A DNA stretch of 63,195 nucleotides from Thermoplasmata archaeon (GTDB lineage Archaea > Thermoplasmatota > Thermoplasmata > Thermoplasmatales > Thermoplasmataceae), in NCBI GenBank assembly GCA_021806295.1, contig JAJZXS010000025.1, forward strand, positions 1 through 63,195. The letters are read 5' to 3'. The position numbers and the translations under genes were made by a program. Shown here piece after piece: positions 2,797 to 60,869 of this stretch. Numbering within the stretch: the stretch's first letter is position 1; every line of letters starts with the position of its first letter. The notes below the pieces were generated by a model. That model saw only the letters and a list, made by a program, of their open reading frames with translations. It was not told where the DNA came from and made no database searches.

Positions 2797-3909
2797 TTAG
2801 TTTGGCTTTTTATACTCTATTCCAAACCCGGGCCTGTCACCAAGTTCAATGTAACCCTTTACAGGGAATGGTATTCCTTCCATATCCTGCTCCATCCACT
2901 CCCTGTATTTGGTCAGGAACTCTGCAACAGGTGTCACGCTTTCCGGCTCTGATATTATGCAGTGGAGGTTATAAACATTGCCTGTGTGGGGTACAATAAT
3001 AGCTCCATAGGTTTCGGCAAGCGCGGCTATCTTTTTCATAGGTGTTATGCCGCCTGTCCAGACAGCATCCGGCTGCAGTATTCTTATGCCCGCATCCAGT
3101 AATCTTTTAAAATCGTATACATGATAATGGTGTTCCCCCTCTGATATGGGTATATCTGTTTTCAGTGTTAGCATTTTCATGGCCTCGAAATCATCAGGCA
3201 TAAAGGGCTCCTCCACCCATGCCATATCATATTTTTCAAGCTTCTTTACCATTTTAAGTGCAAAGTTGTAATTCCATGACATCCACGCGTCACCTGCCAG
3301 TTCCACATCGTATCCCACCGCGTCCCTTATGGCCCTTACGAGTTCTATGTTTTTACTGACACCGTCAACATCTGATGGGCCTGAAATAAATCTCATCTTC
3401 ATGGTCTTGTAACCCTCTGACACATATTTCCGTGCCTCTTCCTGCAGTTCTGGTATGGCTGTTGGATGCAGATGCGATGCATATGCCCTTATTTTTTTTC
3501 GTGTAGGGCCGCCCATTATACGGTATGCTGGAACACCGAGATACCTTGAATAAAGGTCGTACATAAGGATGTTGATTGCACTGAGAGCGTGCATCATAAC
3601 GCCGGCTCTCCCCAGGGGAAGGGACAGCCTGTAAAGCATGTCCCAGGCCATGTTTATTTCAGAAACGTCCAGTCCGTTCAATTTTTTTGACAGATCAACG
3701 GCAAAATCCGCAACGTCTGAAGTTGTGTTGTAGTACGCTGCATAATCACCTGCCCTCATCTCAAGGGTGCAAACTTCATTGATCATGGCGGCCTCAGTAG
3801 GCGATACCTCGCCAAGGATGTTTTTATAATAATCTGTTGGCTTGACATATCTGTAAACAGGCTGTTCCACCTTTTCCCTACCAATTATTCTTACGCCTTC
3901 GATCTTCAT
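2797..3909 (-). CDS. Enolase-superfamily sugar-acid dehydratase, L-rhamnonate dehydratase-like
   Basis: A 370-residue member of the mandelate racemase group of the enolase superfamily. These enzymes remove water from sugar acids, giving 2-keto-3-deoxy acids. The three acidic magnesium ligands can be placed in LAGDAW, WVEEPF and SEGEHH, followed by QPDAVW and the catalytic histidine region PHTGNVY. The stretch EGEHH, then QPDxxWxGGxT, then VPHxxxVYxxH and the C-terminal DRPGFGIE strongly recall bacterial RhmD, so L-rhamnonate is the best substrate guess. Related archaeal enzymes act on gluconate or arabinonate and cannot be excluded. The MBL-fold gene follows 42 bases downstream. A rhamnose mutarotase and a DapA-type aldolase at 39665-40881 could serve the same non-phosphorylating pathway. 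Confidence 0.8.
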   Translation of the reverse strand: MKIEGVRIIGREKVEQPVYRYVKPTDYYKNILGEVSPTEAAMINEVCTLEMRAGDYAAYYNTTSDVADFAVDLSKKLNGLDVSEINMAWDMLYRLSLPLGRAGVMMHALSAINILMYDLYSRYLGVPAYRIMGGPTRKKIRAYASHLHPTAIPELQEEARKYVSEGYKTMKMRFISGPSDVDGVSKNIELVRAIRDAVGYDVELAGDAWMSWNYNFALKMVKKLEKYDMAWVEEPFMPDDFEAMKMLTLKTDIPISEGEHHYHVYDFKRLLDAGIRILQPDAVWTGGITPMKKIAALAETYGAIIVPHTGNVYNLHCIISEPESVTPVAEFLTKYREWMEQDMEGIPFPVKGYIELGDRPGFGIEYKKPN

Positions 3910-4020
3910 AATATCATATTTTTAATGTTTGATTATTATTAAATCTATATCCGGAAATGTTCGTATATGGAAAGAGGGAATATTGCACATTATTTTTATA
4001 TTATTTCATTATATTAAATT

Positions 4021-4776
4021 ATGAAAGCTGTTATAATTACAGTTGGAAACGAAATACTGAAGGGCAGGACCGTAAACACAAATTTTTCCTATATAGGAGA
4101 ATTGCTCACGTATTCAGGATATGATGTTGTAAAGGGAATAATTGTCAGGGATAATCTTGACGAGATATCTAATGCATTCAGGGAATCTTTTTCAGCAGGT
4201 GATATTATTATATCTTCCGGCGGGCTGGGTCCCACCTATGACGACATGACGCTGAAGGGGTTCTCTGCATGCTTCGGATTGAAGCTTGTAAAAAATCAGG
4301 AGGCCGAGAATATGATACTCGGGAAGGCAGGGTATATGACTCCTGCCAGGGAAAAAATGTCAATCCTCCCCGAAGGATCAGAACCACTGGAAAACAGGGC
4401 CGGAACAGCCCCTGGCATTTATATTGAAATTTCCGGTAAGACCTTTATAATAGTCCCTGGGGTTCCGGGAGAGGTGAAATCTATCATGGAAGGAATAAAG
4501 GACAGGATAAAAGTACCCGGATTTCAATATACTGATAGATCTGAAAATCTGTATAATGTTAAGGAAAGCCTCATAGCGCCTTTAATAGCTGACCTTATGA
4601 AAAAATATGGTGGCAATGCATACATAAAAACACACCCGAAAGTAGATGAGAATGGAGAGCCGTGGGTTGAGGTGGAGGTATCCGCATGGGGAAACGACAG
4701 GGGTGCCATAGAAAAACTGGCTGATTCCATACTGGAGCAGATAAAGGAAGATGCAATGCAGAATAATTATAAGTAA
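4021..4776 (+). CDS. CinA N-terminal/MoaB-like molybdopterin-binding-fold protein
   Basis: A 251-residue protein of the CinA amino-terminal family. The fold is that of molybdopterin-binding proteins, but most archaeal members are of unproven function; relatives have been linked to nucleotide pyrophosphatase or NMN-related activities. Visible signatures are ITVGNEILKGRTVNTN at the N-terminus, SSGGLGPTYDDMT near residue 65, and VPGVPGEVKSIM near residue 145. The C-terminal amidase domain of bacterial CinA is absent, which is normal in archaea. A TATA-like TTTTTATATT lies about 23 bases before the ATG with no Shine-Dalgarno sequence, so the transcript is probably leaderless. The DUF2240 gene follows 17 bases downstream on the same strand and may be co-transcribed. 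Confidence 0.85.
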   Translation: MKAVIITVGNEILKGRTVNTNFSYIGELLTYSGYDVVKGIIVRDNLDEISNAFRESFSAGDIIISSGGLGPTYDDMTLKGFSACFGLKLVKNQEAENMILGKAGYMTPAREKMSILPEGSEPLENRAGTAPGIYIEISGKTFIIVPGVPGEVKSIMEGIKDRIKVPGFQYTDRSENLYNVKESLIAPLIADLMKKYGGNAYIKTHPKVDENGEPWVEVEVSAWGNDRGAIEKLADSILEQIKEDAMQNNYK

Positions 4777-4793
4777 ATAAATGATTTACCCGC

Positions 4794-5270
4794 ATGAATA
4801 AGGATATGGCAAGAAAACTCATAGCCCTGGTGGCCATGAAAAAGGCCAGCGGTTATACCAGCTCAGATTTTATCAATACACTATCATTCAAACGTGCCCT
4901 GATTCCCCCGGATACTGTGGAACGTTTTATTGAGTCTTCCCTTAATGAGAAGCTCATAGTTGAAAAGGAAGGAAAATATGTTCCAAATTTCAGCACTGAG
5001 GGAGTTATAGTACCACTGGATTTTTCAGTTGATGTTGATGAACTTTTCTCGGAGGCGGCTGAAAAGCCACTGGTAGACAGAATGCTGGAAGCGGCTTCGG
5101 CCTCAGGAAAAATGACAAAAAAGGAGGCAATAATCAAGGCCAGGGATCTGCTATCCGGCATGCAGTTTATAGATTTTGAAACGGCAATGGTCACTGTTCT
5201 TTCGGATGCTGGAATAGATATATCCTCATTTGTAGCTGAAAAGGAGAATAACTCCGGATACTCTCAATAA
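4794..5270 (+). CDS. DUF2240 family archaeal protein
   Basis: A 158-residue archaeal protein. The N-terminal half shows the DUF2240 layout: a helical start, then FINTLSFKR, then VERFIESSLNEKLIV, then YVPNF and a VIVPLDFSVDVDELF segment. The family is conserved across euryarchaea; its function is unknown. The arrangement of helices suggests a winged-helix-like N-terminal domain followed by a helical C-terminal domain (LVDRMLEAASASGKMTKKEAI and onward) that recalls the other end of the family. It follows the CinA-like gene closely. Its last codons overlap by seven bases the end of the convergent Trm1 gene, so the two transcripts share their 3' ends. Confidence 0.78.
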   Translation: MNKDMARKLIALVAMKKASGYTSSDFINTLSFKRALIPPDTVERFIESSLNEKLIVEKEGKYVPNFSTEGVIVPLDFSVDVDELFSEAAEKPLVDRMLEAASASGKMTKKEAIIKARDLLSGMQFIDFETAMVTVLSDAGIDISSFVAEKENNSGYSQ

Positions 5271-45484: not shown

Positions 45485-45663
45485 ATGCTATAGCATTGGA
45501 TCCTGCAGACGAATAGGCCAACTGGCAATAAATGCTACCACCAGGAGAGGTGAAATGTTTATATTGAAAATAGCATTATAATCTATGTGGATGGAGTTCC
45601 ACTCAATGCCTCTGTGCTGATAACTCCTGATAAAAATGGAATGGAGTGGTACTGTGGAGTTTG
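45485..45663 (+). other. Possible degenerate small frames before the MutS-like pair
   Basis: Between lhr and the MutS-like genes lie about 240 bases. They contain a perfect dyad ATGCTATAGCAT (45485-45496), a strong Shine-Dalgarno AGGAGAGGTGA (45543-45553) followed at once by an eight-residue frame (ATG at 45555), and in another frame a coding-looking stretch ending IIIYVDGVPLNASVLITP and NGMEWYCGV with its stop at 45661-45663, overlapping the start of the next gene. It may be a leader peptide, a small overlapping gene without an accepted start codon, or remains of a broken gene. Confidence 0.25.
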
Positions 45664-47192
45664 AAAGCATAATTTACAGGGACAATGGCGTAAAAACCGT
45701 AATGGAAAGGGAAACAGATATTTTTAGGGATCTGGCCCTGGATGAAATTTTTGCTGCAATAAATGGACACATACATGATAATGAAACTGAATCTTTGCTG
45801 TATATGCCCATGAAATCTGAACAGGATATAAAATACAGGCAGGAGGTGTTTCAGGATCTGACTGATATAAACATAAGCAGGGGAATCGAGTCTTTCTCTA
45901 AGGATGCCGAAATCCTGCAATACAATATGAAAAAATTGAGGGAAGTAGATTCAGTGCAGAGAAATAGGCTATTCCTTGATTCCGCATATCTGTATTGTAA
46001 TTCTATTATTTCGCTCCTTAATTGCCTTGATAATAATGCCGTAAAATCCCATGGACTGAATAGCTTAAGAAATTACCTTAGATCATACAGCAAATCTGAA
46101 GAATTCAGAATACTGGCATCTGAATCAAAAGGAGTGGAAAGTGCAATGGAATCCTTAAGGTATATGATTACAGTTAAGGGTACAAGGATAACTGTCAGGA
46201 GAAGCATTGAATCAGAGGATTTTGGTGCCGAGATAGTAAAATACTTTGACCGTTTTCTTGATGGCGAACAGCCGGAATTCAAGGAAAATTATTCATACAG
46301 CACCGGCCATGTGGAGGCTTCATTGGTTGAAATGGCATCAAGGCTTTACCCGGATCAGTTCTTAAGGATGGAATCGTTCTATGAGAACCATCAGAATTTT
46401 ATCAGTCCTGTAATTGAAAGGCTTATGCGTGAAATAAAATTTTATACAAGATACATAACCTACATGAGGCGTTTCATAGACAGTGGATTGGACTTTTGCA
46501 TTCCAGAGATTGTATCCTCCGGTGATGTTTTTTATTCAAGAAATTCCTATGACCTGGCACTTGCAGGGAAACTCCTTGATAGGGGAATATTACCTGTTAC
46601 AAACGGCTTTTATCTCGAAGGTGGGGCAAAAATTATACTTGTGACCGGCCCAAACAATGGAGGGAAGACCACATTTGCCAGGGCCTTTGGCCAGATGCAC
46701 TATCTTGCTTCACTTGGTTTCCCGGTGCCTGGAAGCAGTGCAAGGCTCCAGGCCCCTGATAAGATATACACACATTTTGAAAAATCAGAGACAGTTGAAA
46801 ATCCAGTTGGCAGGCTGGAGGAAGAATTGATCAGGTTCCATGAAATAGTTAAAAATGCAACATGCAGAAGCATTGTAATTATAAATGAAATGCTGAGCTC
46901 CGCAACTTTACGTGATGGAATAGAGATAGGAAAGAAAATCATTGAAAATCTGAAAGAAATCGGGTGCATTACGGTTTACGTTACATTCATACACGAACTC
47001 TCCCTAATAGAAGGAACAGAAAGTTATGTTGCACAGGTCAACAACAAAGACCCCGAAAAAAGAACGTATAAAATAATTAAACAGCCATCAAATGGAATGA
47101 CCTATGCACATGCACTTGCGGAAAAATACGGGCTGAGCTATGAAGACTTGAGGAGGAGGATCAGTAATGAGAACGTACCTGAGCAGCATTAG
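45654..47192 (+). CDS. MutS-like ATPase, first of a tandem pair
   Basis: A 512-residue MutS-family protein with the core lever/clamp domains and the ABC-type ATPase, but without the N-terminal mismatch-recognition domain I (no FxE motif). The N-terminus VEFESIIYRDNG and the KYRQEVFQDL motif fit the family. Walker A GPNNGGKTTFAR lies near residue 332, and Walker B reads IVIINEMLSSATLRDG, with asparagine where MutS has aspartate. The histidine switch is in FIHELS. GTG 45654 is taken as start because GGAG lies seven bases upstream and FESII is the usual family start; the ATG at 45636 is an alternative. Its end overlaps the second gene by 26 bases. Confidence 0.85.
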   Translation: MEFESIIYRDNGVKTVMERETDIFRDLALDEIFAAINGHIHDNETESLLYMPMKSEQDIKYRQEVFQDLTDINISRGIESFSKDAEILQYNMKKLREVDSVQRNRLFLDSAYLYCNSIISLLNCLDNNAVKSHGLNSLRNYLRSYSKSEEFRILASESKGVESAMESLRYMITVKGTRITVRRSIESEDFGAEIVKYFDRFLDGEQPEFKENYSYSTGHVEASLVEMASRLYPDQFLRMESFYENHQNFISPVIERLMREIKFYTRYITYMRRFIDSGLDFCIPEIVSSGDVFYSRNSYDLALAGKLLDRGILPVTNGFYLEGGAKIILVTGPNNGGKTTFARAFGQMHYLASLGFPVPGSSARLQAPDKIYTHFEKSETVENPVGRLEEELIRFHEIVKNATCRSIVIINEMLSSATLRDGIEIGKKIIENLKEIGCITVYVTFIHELSLIEGTESYVAQVNNKDPEKRTYKIIKQPSNGMTYAHALAEKYGLSYEDLRRRISNENVPEQH

Positions 47193-48684
47193 CGGAAAAA
47201 GGAAGGTTAATGGTATGCCATGGAACTCAGATGCACTTATAAATGACCTTGGATTGAAACCTGTATTTAATGCAATGTCAGGTGGTGATGATTTTCTTCT
47301 GAAGACTTCTATGGAATTTTTGCTGGCTGGATGTTGTTCCATAGATGAAATACTGTACAGGCAGGAAATATTAAAGGATTTTATGGCTAACACCGGGGTT
47401 GCCCTGGAAATATACAGAAATGCTGTTGATTTTACAGAATATGCAAAAAAGCAGTTTTTCTGGTTCAGCAATAATGATGCCCTTTCAATAGAGGTATCGG
47501 TTGATATACTGCGTAAATTTATTATTTACTCCGGGAAGTTAAGGGCATTGCTCTATGAATCTAAGAAAAGTTTCAATTCATTGGGCCTGAAGAAATTCTA
47601 CAGTGTAATTTCTGAGGACTTCGGGCCTGATTATCTTGATAGGGCCATGGAATACCTGGACAAATTGAATTTCCGTGATGGTGTAACTCTCAGCATGGCA
47701 CTGGGACCGGGTAATTCCGGAAGGGATTATATTCTGCATGAACCTTATAATTCCGTATCAGTAAAGAAAACCATGAAGGGCATACTTGAAAGGCATTTCA
47801 CATACACATTGCACGAAAGGGACATTGGAGGGGCAGAGGAGATTTCTGACATAAAAAGCCGTGGGCTGGGAAAGGTTGCCACAGTACTTAGAATCGCCGC
47901 CAGAAATGTAATGGAATTTTATAATGATATAAAAAGGGAGGTGGGATTTTATCTTGCCGCAATCAACCTGATGGAAAATATAGAGGCAAAGAATGGCAAA
48001 ATATGCTTTCCAACACCATGCCATAAAAGGAATATGTCCTTTACCGGGCTATATGACCTGGGTTTGCTTTTCAGTACCGATATGGCAATTGTACCAAACA
48101 GTATGGAATCCCATGATACAGGATTATTTATAATCACCGGAACTAACCGTGGCGGGAAATCGACATTCCTGAGAAGCATCGGGCAGGCACAGATCCTTAT
48201 GCAGGCCGGCATTTTTGTTCCTTCAGAACATTTCAGGGCAAATATGGTTTCAGGAATTTATACCCATTTCAAAAGCGAGGAGGACAGAAACCTCAACATT
48301 GGAAAATTTGAGGATGAGCTTTCAAGGATGGATGAAATAGTTAAACATTTAACAAAGGGCGGCATGGTACTTTTTAACGAATCTTTCTCTTCCACAAATA
48401 CCAGGGAGGGATCAGATATAGCCCTGGAAATAACAAGGGCCCTTCTTGAAAATGAGGTAGCTGTATTCTTTGTTTCACATCTGTATGAATTTGCATCTGC
48501 AGTTGCCGGGAGTGTGGAGAAAAAATCCATGTTTCTTGTTGCAGAGAGAACAGAAGCGGGAAAGCATACATACCGGATAGTGGGTGGCAAACCACAAATA
48601 ACAGGGTACGGAATGGATCTCTACAATAAAATTTTTGTAGCACAGGATTCAAACACAGGCAATTTGCCGGGTTTGGATGGGTGA
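47167..48684 (+). CDS. MutS-like ATPase, second of a tandem pair
   Basis: A 505-residue relative of the preceding gene with the same domain order. It has EILYRQEILKDF near residue 60, Walker A ITGTNRGGKSTFLRSIGQ near 325, and Walker B MVLFNESFSSTNTREG, again with asparagine for aspartate, then VSHLYEFASAV as switch region. No mismatch-binding domain precedes the core. The ATG is within the first gene's 3' end and has GAGGAGGAGGATC just upstream, so the two are coupled and probably form a heterodimer. Such pairs exist in other prokaryotes, but their function is poorly known. Canonical MutL is not present nearby. Confidence 0.85.
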   Translation: MRTYLSSISGKRKVNGMPWNSDALINDLGLKPVFNAMSGGDDFLLKTSMEFLLAGCCSIDEILYRQEILKDFMANTGVALEIYRNAVDFTEYAKKQFFWFSNNDALSIEVSVDILRKFIIYSGKLRALLYESKKSFNSLGLKKFYSVISEDFGPDYLDRAMEYLDKLNFRDGVTLSMALGPGNSGRDYILHEPYNSVSVKKTMKGILERHFTYTLHERDIGGAEEISDIKSRGLGKVATVLRIAARNVMEFYNDIKREVGFYLAAINLMENIEAKNGKICFPTPCHKRNMSFTGLYDLGLLFSTDMAIVPNSMESHDTGLFIITGTNRGGKSTFLRSIGQAQILMQAGIFVPSEHFRANMVSGIYTHFKSEEDRNLNIGKFEDELSRMDEIVKHLTKGGMVLFNESFSSTNTREGSDIALEITRALLENEVAVFFVSHLYEFASAVAGSVEKKSMFLVAERTEAGKHTYRIVGGKPQITGYGMDLYNKIFVAQDSNTGNLPGLDG

Positions 48685-57837: not shown

Positions 57838-59541
57838 ATGGATAATTTCTGGGATATAAAAGCAAAGGAAATAATGCAATCCTTCAGTGAAGATAAAAAT
57901 TATGAAAAATGGAAGGAAGCGGTTTTGAATCCGTGGAACAAAAAAACCGGTTATAAGGATAAAACCAGGGAAAATTCATCATCGATGCCAGTAAAGGAAC
58001 TTTATACAGCTGGAGACCTTCCCAGAGACGCTGCCGAAAGAATTGGCTATCCGGGTGAGTACCCGTTTACACGTGGTATATACCCGAACATGTACAGGGG
58101 AAGAAACTGGACCATGCGTATGTTCTCGGGTTTCGGGACACCGGACGATACAAATAAGAGGCTGAAATATTTAATAGAAAATGGGGAGACAGGGCTGAGT
58201 ATAGCATTTGATATGCCAACGCTTTATGGTTACGATTGTGACAGCAAAAGGGCAGAGGGCGAGGTAGGCAAATGCGGTGTTAATGTTTCATCACTTCATG
58301 ATATGGAGAGAATATTTGATGGCATTGACCTCTCAAAGGTAAGCACATCCATGACAATAAATGCTCCTGCGGCCATACTCACAGCAATGTATTTTGTACT
58401 GGCAGAAAAAAAGGGCATACCCTTAGAAAAAATTTCTGGAACAGTACAGGCAGATATACTGAAGGAGTATATAGCCCAGAAAGAATGGATGTACCCGCCT
58501 GAGGCCCATCTAAGGCTAATCAGGGACATGCTTGTATATTCAACAGAACACGTCCCAAAATGGAATTACATAAGTGTTTCAGGATATCACATAAGGGAGG
58601 CCGGATCCAGCGCGGTACAGGAGCTTGCATTTACTCTTGCTGATGGGTTTTATTACATTGAGATGGGCATAAATGCAGGATTGGACGTGGATGATTTTGC
58701 ACCGAGAACATCATTTTTCTTCAATTCATCCATTAACTTCTTTGAGGAGATTGCAAAATTCAGGGCGGCTAGGCGCATATGGGCAACGGTGCTTAAGGAA
58801 AAATACAATGCAAAAAACCCGAAAAGCATGGCGTTGAAATTCCATACACAAACATCCGGTTACACGCTTACATGGCAGCAGCCACTGAACAATATAGTCA
58901 GAACAACAATAGAAGCCATGGCAGCAGTTCTGGGGGGCACCCAGAGCCTGCACACCAATTCCTACGATGAAGCCTGGGCGCTTCCAACTGATGATGCAGT
59001 AAAGGTTGCACTGAGGACACAGCAAATACTGGCTGAGGAAACTGGAATAACCGATGTTATTGATCCACTGGGTGGCTCTTATTATCTGGAGCGGCTCACA
59101 TGTGAGATGGAGATCGAGGCATACAAATACTTCTCAGAAATTGAGAAGATGGGGGGAATCCTTAATGCCGTAAAATCCGGATATTTGCAAAAGGAAATAG
59201 CTGACACATCATATAAAAAGCAGCTAAAAATAGAAAGAGAGGAGGATATAATAGTAGGGGTAAACAAATATGTTGACAGGGATGAAAAACCGATCAACAC
59301 ATTGAAGATCACCGATGTGGCTGAGAAAGGTCAAATAAGTAGCCTTGAGAATGTCAAAAAGAACAGGGACGAATCTAAAGTTTCAAGGTCTCTTGAGGAA
59401 CTCCATAAAGCGATGGAAGATGATAGGGTTAATCTCATGCCCTATATAATGGAATGCGTTAGAAATTACTGCACGCTGGAAGAAATATCAAATGTTGGGA
59501 GGGAGATATTCGGTGAGTGGAAGGAGCCAAAAATATACTGA
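57838..59541 (+). CDS. mcmA1: Methylmalonyl-CoA mutase, large (substrate-binding) subunit
   Basis: Catalyses, with the B12-binding subunit, the conversion of methylmalonyl-CoA to succinyl-CoA. The 567-residue protein has YPFTRGIYPNMYRGRNWTMR and FSGFGTPDDTNKR (CoA contact region), GLSIAFDMPTLYGYD, SGTVQADILKEYIAQKEWMYP, and SVSGYHIREAG and HTNSYDEAWALPTDDA later. No B12 domain is fused, which is the usual archaeal arrangement. Its 3' end overlaps the small subunit gene by 29 bases. The operon continues with meaB. Methylmalonyl-CoA epimerase is not seen in the window. Confidence 0.96.
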   Translation: MDNFWDIKAKEIMQSFSEDKNYEKWKEAVLNPWNKKTGYKDKTRENSSSMPVKELYTAGDLPRDAAERIGYPGEYPFTRGIYPNMYRGRNWTMRMFSGFGTPDDTNKRLKYLIENGETGLSIAFDMPTLYGYDCDSKRAEGEVGKCGVNVSSLHDMERIFDGIDLSKVSTSMTINAPAAILTAMYFVLAEKKGIPLEKISGTVQADILKEYIAQKEWMYPPEAHLRLIRDMLVYSTEHVPKWNYISVSGYHIREAGSSAVQELAFTLADGFYYIEMGINAGLDVDDFAPRTSFFFNSSINFFEEIAKFRAARRIWATVLKEKYNAKNPKSMALKFHTQTSGYTLTWQQPLNNIVRTTIEAMAAVLGGTQSLHTNSYDEAWALPTDDAVKVALRTQQILAEETGITDVIDPLGGSYYLERLTCEMEIEAYKYFSEIEKMGGILNAVKSGYLQKEIADTSYKKQLKIEREEDIIVGVNKYVDRDEKPINTLKITDVAEKGQISSLENVKKNRDESKVSRSLEELHKAMEDDRVNLMPYIMECVRNYCTLEEISNVGREIFGEWKEPKIY

Positions 59542-59959
59542 AGCACCCATAAAGGTTCTGCTGGCAAAACCGGCTATAGATGGGCATGACCGCGGCATAT
59601 TTGTCCTTGCAAAGGCTTTCAGGGATGCAGGTATGGACGTTATTTATGCCGGGCTTTTGCCAACACCGGAGGAAGTTGTTGATACCGCGATAAATGAGGA
59701 TGTGGACGTAATTGCGCTCAGCCTCTTGAACGGTGCCCACATGACCGCGTTCAGGAATGTTATGGAAATACTCAAAAAAAGAGGGGTACAGGACATAGCC
59801 GTGGTTGGTGGCGGAATTATACCTGATGAGGATAAACCTGCCCTTGAGAAGATGGGAATAACAGGGAACTTTGGTCCTGGCACGCCTCTAAATGTTATAA
59901 TAGACCATATTAAAACAAGGGCCAGGGAAATAAGGAAAATGAGAGAAAATGAATACTGA
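59513..59959 (+). CDS. mcmA2: Methylmalonyl-CoA mutase, B12-binding subunit
   Basis: The small subunit that binds adenosylcobalamin. In about 148 residues it has IKVLLAKPAIDGHDRGIFVLAKAF with the DxHxxG histidine that replaces the lower axial ligand, then VIYAGLLPTPEEVV, ALSLLNGAHM and VVGGGIIPDED. GTG 59513 is preferred, with GGAGGGAG upstream, though the frame is open from an ATG at 59492. It overlaps the large subunit by 29 bases and meaB by 11 bases. Together they form one functional mutase. Confidence 0.94.
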   Translation: MSGRSQKYTEAPIKVLLAKPAIDGHDRGIFVLAKAFRDAGMDVIYAGLLPTPEEVVDTAINEDVDVIALSLLNGAHMTAFRNVMEILKKRGVQDIAVVGGGIIPDEDKPALEKMGITGNFGPGTPLNVIIDHIKTRAREIRKMRENEY

Positions 59960-60869
59960 TATCCTGGCTCAGGGCATACTGCATGGAGATTACAGGGCCA
60001 TTGCAAGATCAATATCCCTCATAGAAAACTCAGGCTACGAGGTAAGGAAGGCCATAATTAAAAGGATATACGGTCACGGCGATGCAAAGGTTGTTGGCAT
60101 CACAGGACCACCAGGCGTGGGAAAAAGCACAGCAATAGGGAATCTGGCACCTTTACTTGCTGCCCATGGAAAGGTTGCGGTTCTGGCAATTGACCCGGCA
60201 AGCCCCTTCTCTGGAGGTGCCATACTCGGAAACCGGATACGGATGCAGTCGGCATTGAGTAAGCAGGGAATATATATGAGGAGCACGTCAAATAGACTTT
60301 ACAACGGTGGGCTCTCAGAATATACCTGGGATATTGTAAAGGTTCTGGAGGCTGCCGGAAATGATTATATAATCCTTGAAACTGTTGGTTCCGGGCAGGC
60401 AGATATAGATGTTATGGACATTGCGGATGTGACGTGCGTATTCCTTGCCCCCGGTCTTGGAGATGAGATACAGGCGATAAAGTCGGGAATAATGGAAATA
60501 GGTGACATCTTTGTAGTTAACAAAATAGACAGGGAGGGTTCATATCTTGCAATCAAGGACATAAGAGAATCACTTAGCATGAGCAATAAACTGGAAACCC
60601 CGGTTATCGGGGTTAATTCACTTACTGGCGATCACTATGGGGAACTGGTACAGAGCATCCTGAAAATGAATGCCCGAAATCCACGTGAAAAATATTACAA
60701 AAAACTTAAGATGGTTGTCATGGAGGCCATTTATGATGAATATTCGAATTATGTTGACAGCATAGAATTTGGAGATAATCCTTTGAAAGAAGACCCTTAT
60801 ACCATGGCCGAGGAAATACTTGGAAAGCAGGTGGCAAGGCCAGAGAAACTTAAGGACAGGGAAAGATAA
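59949..60869 (+). CDS. meaB: Methylmalonyl-CoA mutase-associated GTPase MeaB
   Basis: A G3E-type GTPase chaperone that loads and protects cobalamin in methylmalonyl-CoA mutase. The 306-residue protein carries Walker A GPPGVGKSTAIG near residue 54, IDPASPFSGGAILGNRIRMQ, ETVGSGQADIDV (switch II), NKIDREGS (NKxD) and the C-terminal helix region. It overlaps the small subunit gene by 11 bases. This arrangement of mutase and MeaB is common. The C-terminus is a little short. Confidence 0.95.
   Translation: MNTDILAQGILHGDYRAIARSISLIENSGYEVRKAIIKRIYGHGDAKVVGITGPPGVGKSTAIGNLAPLLAAHGKVAVLAIDPASPFSGGAILGNRIRMQSALSKQGIYMRSTSNRLYNGGLSEYTWDIVKVLEAAGNDYIILETVGSGQADIDVMDIADVTCVFLAPGLGDEIQAIKSGIMEIGDIFVVNKIDREGSYLAIKDIRESLSMSNKLETPVIGVNSLTGDHYGELVQSILKMNARNPREKYYKKLKMVVMEAIYDEYSNYVDSIEFGDNPLKEDPYTMAEEILGKQVARPEKLKDRER

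Follow-up and report, generated by a model that had tools for sequence, protein, structure and literature searches.

The window examined in this work, a 63,195-nt stretch of contig JAJZXS010000025.1 from a Thermoplasmata archaeon, carries a tandem pair of genes for MutS-like ATPases that we interpret as MutS4A/B under fluoride regulation, with a role in fluoride tolerance. We put the probability of this reading at about 0.85, a figure that excludes the identity of the client. A role in fluoride defence is preferred over mismatch repair because a fluoride riboswitch lies directly upstream of the pair and because its bacterial relatives are found in fluoride-resistance clusters. Fluoride riboswitches or fluoride genes accompany the pair in two domains of life.

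Organization of the Gene Pair

The mutS4A-like gene (gene A, 45654-47192) and the mutS4B-like gene (gene B, 47167-48684) are both on the + strand, and in the list of open reading frames they overlap by 26 nt. The overlap was 4 nt in 19 of the 22 loci compared and 26 nt in the remaining three. Gene B codes for a protein of 505 aa. In the case of gene A, the mechanical start of the reading frame is the ATG at 45636, giving 518 aa. The GTG at 45654, which gives 512 aa, is most likely the better start, judging from the Shine-Dalgarno sequence GGAGTGG at 45643-45649 and the N-terminus typical of the family (M-x-F-x-S-I); the initial annotation had chosen the same codon.

Analysis with Pfam matched a single domain in each protein, MutS_V (E-value 1.5e-20 for A and 5.5e-22 for B), and none of the domains MutS_I to MutS_IV. 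In a profile alignment, residues 8-517 of A correspond to residues 245-800 of MutS1. The alignment begins at about residue 245 and, therefore, domains I and II are missing. These results agree with the initial description of the region 45654-48684 as two coupled MutS-family ATPases in tandem without the mismatch-binding domain. The clamp region of the pair is short and was not confidently aligned to MutS1. AlphaFold, given four sequences per protein, produced poor models (mean pLDDT 49.5 and 53.6); their fold matches were MutS and MutS2, which agrees with the sequence and carries no weight alone.

Active Sites

The Walker A motif of A is GPNNGGKT (46647-46670, + strand) and that of B is GTNRGGKS (48139-48162, + strand). 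Asn-Glu occupies the Walker B position at 46884-46889 in A and at 48376-48381 in B (both + strand), and it is invariant in 28/28 A proteins and 29/29 B proteins. The Asn was found in 22/22 archaeal A proteins, 22/22 archaeal B proteins and 13/13 plasmid copies, that is, in all 57 pair proteins, as opposed to Asp in all 34 MutS1 and MutS2 proteins compared. The replacement of DE by NE, read from the two proteins of the window alone in the initial annotation, is shared by all of these pair proteins and is not due to chance. Three more distant gut proteins likewise carry the Walker B Asn. NE also occurs in Walker B of a lone 576-aa MutS-like protein, encoded at 3491-5221 of a contig filed as viral (IMGVR_UViG_2799112420_000002).

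The two active sites differ at the H-loop. Phe replaces the MutS His in A (46986-46988, + strand; Phe in 28/28 A proteins, His in 34/34 MutS1/MutS2), whereas B keeps the histidine (48478-48480, + strand; 29/29 B proteins). The His is present in a distant gut A-like protein, and its loss in A therefore probably postdates the acquisition of Asn. Both A and B have Lys or Arg at the position of the Thr/Ser of the MutS signature loop. The same Walker B Asp-to-Asn change is known from E. coli MutS D693N, which has been crystallized (PDB 3k0s). That protein is a laboratory mutant of a mismatch-repair enzyme, whereas in the pair Asn is the fixed natural state of both subunits. As the natural counterpart of D693N, the Asn should alter Mg2+ coordination, and the Phe in the H-loop of A should make the two ATP sites unlike each other.

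Fluoride Riboswitch in Front of the Pair

Directly upstream of gene A lies an RNA element that had gone unnoticed in the initial annotation. With the use of cmscan, it was identified as the aptamer of a fluoride riboswitch (RF01734, crcB motif) at 45578-45636 of the + strand, with a score of 27.1 bits and an E-value of 1.4e-4 in 4.1 kb, or 7.7e-6 when 221 bases were searched. The score is below the Rfam gathering score of 34; the aptamers of relatives at the same place reach 34-42 bits (up to 42.1). The two stems and the long-range pseudoknot of RF01734 are present, and one P3 pair is non-standard in the window aptamer. About 22 nt before the first aptamer stem there is a TATA-like box, TTTATATT (45558-45565, + strand), a putative archaeal promoter that occurs at a similar distance in two other loci (L036 and L037).

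Just upstream of the pair, an RF01734 match with an E-value of at most 1e-3 was found in 18 of 21 Thermoplasmatota loci, five of these reaching at least the gathering score. Two further loci show the aptamer core with weaker scores, so that the core is present in 20/21; no core was found before the pair in two of 22 loci (L053 and L058). Such RNAs number only one to three per genome. Covariation was tested on the known RF01734 fold, which was not derived from these sequences. Over 23 sequences, nine of 11 base pairs changed on both sides, pseudoknot included, and standard pairing was observed in 96.8% of paired cells. The pseudoknot was 100% paired, with four of its five pairs changed on both sides. 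The covariation score was 0.407 vs. 0.145 after shuffling, and none of 500 shuffles reached it.

The arrangement of the element suggests how it may control translation. The 5′ strand of the pseudoknot, GGAGU in the first loop (45593-45597, + strand), pairs with the 3′ strand ACUCC (45623-45627, + strand). The latter is complementary alike to this loop and to the GGAGU within the Shine-Dalgarno sequence GGAGUGG of gene A (45643-45649, + strand), and in the predicted pseudoknot-free MFE fold it is paired with 45643-45647. In 20 loci, the mean probability that the ACUCC strand pairs downstream was 0.78 vs. 0.54 with shuffled downstream sequence, and three of the 20 showed the opposite trend. The Shine-Dalgarno sequence is accordingly predicted to be sequestered without fluoride. 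As the usual effect of a fluoride riboswitch is to increase expression (PMC11139923), the arrangement is most naturally read as translation turned on by fluoride.

Phylogeny and Subfamily Assignment

A tree was built from the pair proteins of archaea, plasmids and gut sequences. The initial annotation had envisaged a comparison with MutS1 to MutS7; the tree used MutS1 and MutS2 as outgroups. The pair proteins formed one separate group (support 100/99) made up of two clades, one of A proteins (98/87) and one of B proteins (99/90); the long gut branches were insecurely placed. The window proteins fell with the A and B proteins of plasmids, respectively. Each clade mixes archaeal and plasmid members and, therefore, the duplication predates the spread between archaea and bacteria. 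From the same sequences, A and B have probably moved between hosts together.

The name MutS4 was introduced by Lin, Nei and Ma in 2007, as cited in PMC5742357, a report of a mycobacterial MutS4. The pair of Mycobacterium branderi (L094) was included in our tree. According to PMC5742357, MutS4A and MutS4B resemble the window pair in that the genes are adjacent, with the stop of A overlapping the start of B, A and B are sister paralogues, and their distribution is patchy and horizontally moved. The window pair differs in being archaeal and chromosomal, in lying behind a fluoride riboswitch of its own, within genomes that mostly lack crcB, and in its overlap of 26 nt instead of 4. We conclude that the window pair is very probably MutS4A/B placed under a fluoride riboswitch. 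The initial annotation regarded membership in a characterized MutS subfamily of known function as evidence against its reading; the pair fits a named subfamily, which goes half way towards such evidence, the one functional report on MutS4 being of raised recombination in M. smegmatis (PMC5742357).

Distribution and Genome Context

The pair was present in 21 of 61 related genomes, the source genome included, and it was always adjacent and never single. Co-occurrence across genomes, which the initial annotation had singled out as informative, is thus a matter of both genes or neither. In a wider draw, 16 of 390 Thermoplasmatota genomes had the pair, all in its own family or one neighbouring family. 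One further contig end (L143; G029:C85, 3446-3754) carries a fluoride riboswitch followed by the first 69 codons of gene A and, therefore, this genome probably has the pair too. In a MAG labelled as an Actinomycetes bacterium, a MutS4 pair (L058, JAJYGA010000009.1) had no riboswitch core before it; this MAG may either be mis-binned or represent a bacterium that carries the pair.

The source genome has no MutS other than the pair, and neither MutS1, MutL nor NucS was found in it. The statement that no MutL is nearby can therefore be extended to the entire genome, and MutL was likewise lacking in every pair-bearing relative. NucS was not found above the cut-off in any of the 37 genomes searched. 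Elsewhere in the order, other families have MutS1 and MutL, never together with the pair, and many relatives are without the pair, MutS1 or MutL.

No conserved neighbour genes were found around the archaeal pair among the relatives, and the neighbours are not fluoride genes. With no conserved partner, the archaeal gene neighbourhood was dropped as a clue to function. An Lhr-type helicase adjoins the pair in the window and recurs beside it only in the closest relative. A viral origin was also considered and rejected: scans of viral contigs gave one distant single gene, and phage records gave only partial matches. The same applies to anti-phage defence, for which PADLOC returned only weak matches.

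Bacterial Relatives and Fluoride Genes

When plasmids were searched at the protein level, the pair was recovered, with about 35% identity across 96% of B. The hosts were Klebsiella, Citrobacter, Salmonella, Burkholderia, Rhodococcus, Mycobacterium, Rubrobacter and Alicyclobacillus. The neighbouring genes code for CrcB, enolase (eno), inorganic pyrophosphatase, DUF190 and universal stress proteins (usp), a CLC channel, and a cation-proton antiporter. A search with Rfam gave 24 fluoride riboswitches across seven plasmid loci. One lies directly before gene A in Alicyclobacillus, Burkholderia and Mycobacterium, and on two Klebsiella plasmids a riboswitch heads an antiporter-usp-A-B unit; in the plasmids of Rhodococcus and Rubrobacter, none was found immediately in front of A. 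The gene set crcB, eno, gpmA, usp and ppaC behind a fluoride riboswitch in GI3 of E. cloacae FRM (PMC5533749) largely matches that beside the plasmid MutS4 in L090 and L096. The FRM operon is fluoride-induced and needed for resistance (PMC5533749). No mutS is mentioned among its six genes, and the archaeal pair, by contrast, stands alone.

Weinberg et al. described a mutS gene downstream of the crcB motif in 2010 (PMC2864571), with the same RNA motif in the same place before mutS as in the window. That report predates the identification of fluoride as the ligand, and its main text is silent on subfamily, pair structure and Walker B features. The literature naming fluoride, MutS and riboswitches does not appear to discuss the link, in a search outside which most subscription journals lay. 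A human-gut scaffold filed as phage (L145; MT837116.1, 238-4729) encodes HydG and, after it, a distantly related tandem MutS pair whose two proteins both carry NE. This pair adjoins HydG and not fluoride genes, hinting that pairs of its kind might have a part in metalloenzyme maturation as well.

In the source genome, only two gene sets were seen behind a fluoride riboswitch, the pair being one of them. The second riboswitch (contig C6, 36506-36561; L127 and L142; 24.4 bits) precedes a NuoH/HyfC-like gene that heads a formate-hydrogenlyase-like operon. In nine relatives sampled, a NuoH/HyfC-like gene also follows such an RNA, and the formate-hydrogenlyase-like class is known behind the crcB motif (PMC2864571). 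CrcB is nearly absent in these archaea, being detected above the cut-off in only one of the 61 relatives' genomes. Most relatives have one CLC gene; no riboswitch match was found beside the CLC copy of the source genome, which need not be of the fluoride type.

Alternative Explanations

The conventional view, mismatch repair by a shortened MutS, might be taken from the plasmid copies, which are annotated as 'DNA mismatch repair protein MutS', and from the lack of any other MutS in the source genome. It is already contradicted and hardly credible: domain I is missing, no pair-bearing genome has MutL, the NCBIfam scores for MutS1 are 72 and 65 bits vs. a cut-off of 642, and many relatives survive without the pair, MutS1 or MutL. 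A role other than mismatch repair, as initially proposed, is supported by the absence of domain I, MutL, MutS1 and NucS. The suggested alternative of recombination or a structure-specific function found little support, as both the regulation of the pair and its surroundings in bacteria speak for fluoride stress. It survives as a possible but rather doubtful variant, in which a DNA-acting heterodimer, a sliding or structure-specific clamp, would aid recombination or repair and be induced as fluoride stress damages DNA. The alignment to MutS domains III-V and the modelled folds are consistent with this, and a DNA-damaging stress was proposed for the crcB-motif regulon by Weinberg et al. (PMC2864571). 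In the sole published MutS4 experiment found, the M. yongonense MutS4 operon raised the insertion of an rpoB fragment in M. smegmatis (PMC5742357). Against it stand the absence of domains I and II and of MutL, a clamp region too short for confident alignment, and the lack of a recurrent DNA-repair gene beside the pair, the Lhr-type helicase recurring in the closest relative only.

Two further explanations liken the pair to MutS-like ATPases with other clients, and both are improbable. A MutS2-like ATPase rescuing fluoride-stalled ribosomes would agree with the sequence and fold matches to MutS2, including the disome-bound form of B. subtilis. However, the proteins end too close behind the ATPase domain to accommodate a C-terminal Smr region; they lie apart from MutS2 in the tree, and they score 46-61 bits vs. 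the MutS2 NCBIfam cut-off of 400. Slightly less probable still is a reactivase of an adenosylcobalamin enzyme like KamC, with the methylmalonyl-CoA mutase at 57838-59959 as its client. KamC (NF052383), the lysine 5,6-aminomutase reactivase ATPase, is a MutS-like ATPase of about 500 aa, as are the pair proteins, and is the best NCBIfam match of B (E-value 1.7e-21). MutS-like genes occur within adenosylcobalamin-enzyme operons (PMC9164220), and a mutS has been described in a lysine cluster (PMC3149608). However, the pair scores 49 and 77 bits vs. a KamC cut-off of 300, and the match of B covers the ATPase part only. The KamC profile scores Walker B Asp about 5 bits above Asn, which led us to reject NE as a KamC trait, and the RNA upstream of the pair is a fluoride sensor, a different regulation. 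Inspection of the surroundings of the pair, in the window and in relatives, revealed no lysine 5,6-aminomutase genes. The window encodes the large and small subunits of methylmalonyl-CoA mutase and then a MeaB-like GTPase (57838-60869). The mutase thus has its own MeaB-like gene, at 59949, and it is present in 57 of 61 relatives irrespective of the pair. A search covering B12-binding proteins and methylmalonyl-CoA mutase gave no correlation with the pair, and the B12-enzyme reactivase was abandoned.

Proposed Mechanism and Significance

The fluoride-induced MutS4A/B pair would work as follows. The operon, with the aptamer at its 5′ end, would be inducible by fluoride. In the absence of the ion, the ACUCC strand of the aptamer would hide the Shine-Dalgarno sequence of gene A; fluoride together with Mg2+ would stabilize the pseudoknot and free it. 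A and B would then be translated together, coupled via their overlapping genes. The products are likely to form a MutS-like heterodimer consisting of domains III and V and a reduced domain IV. The initial proposal of an obligate pair is strengthened by the fact that the genes are never split and always overlap, by the two ancient paralogue clades and by the asymmetric active sites. Such a heterodimer may open and close on ATP around a client other than a mismatch.

An ATP-driven clamp on complexes damaged or blocked by fluoride is the most likely mode of action, and the client is its weakest step. We tentatively favour a fluoride-inhibited enzyme or complex, with Mg-phosphate enzymes placed slightly ahead of DNA. 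One speculative version is that MutS4AB is an ATP-driven rescue system for fluoride-poisoned macromolecules that, for example, pries open enzymes inhibited by Mg-F-phosphate, and in which the Walker B Asn adapts the Mg2+ site of the system itself to a fluoride-loaded cell.

Fluoride defence consists mainly of export and extra copies of the inhibited enzymes, and an ATPase pair would be a defence of a different kind. The report of mutS behind the crcB RNA in 2010 preceded the recognition of fluoride as the ligand, and no subsequent account of this arrangement was found. MutS4, for its part, has been regarded as an oddity of DNA repair since 2007, and the fluoride link gives it a testable physiological context. 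Caution is warranted with the label 'DNA mismatch repair protein MutS' on such genes. If the proposal is true, rescue would represent a fluoride defence distinct from export in acidophilic archaea without CrcB.
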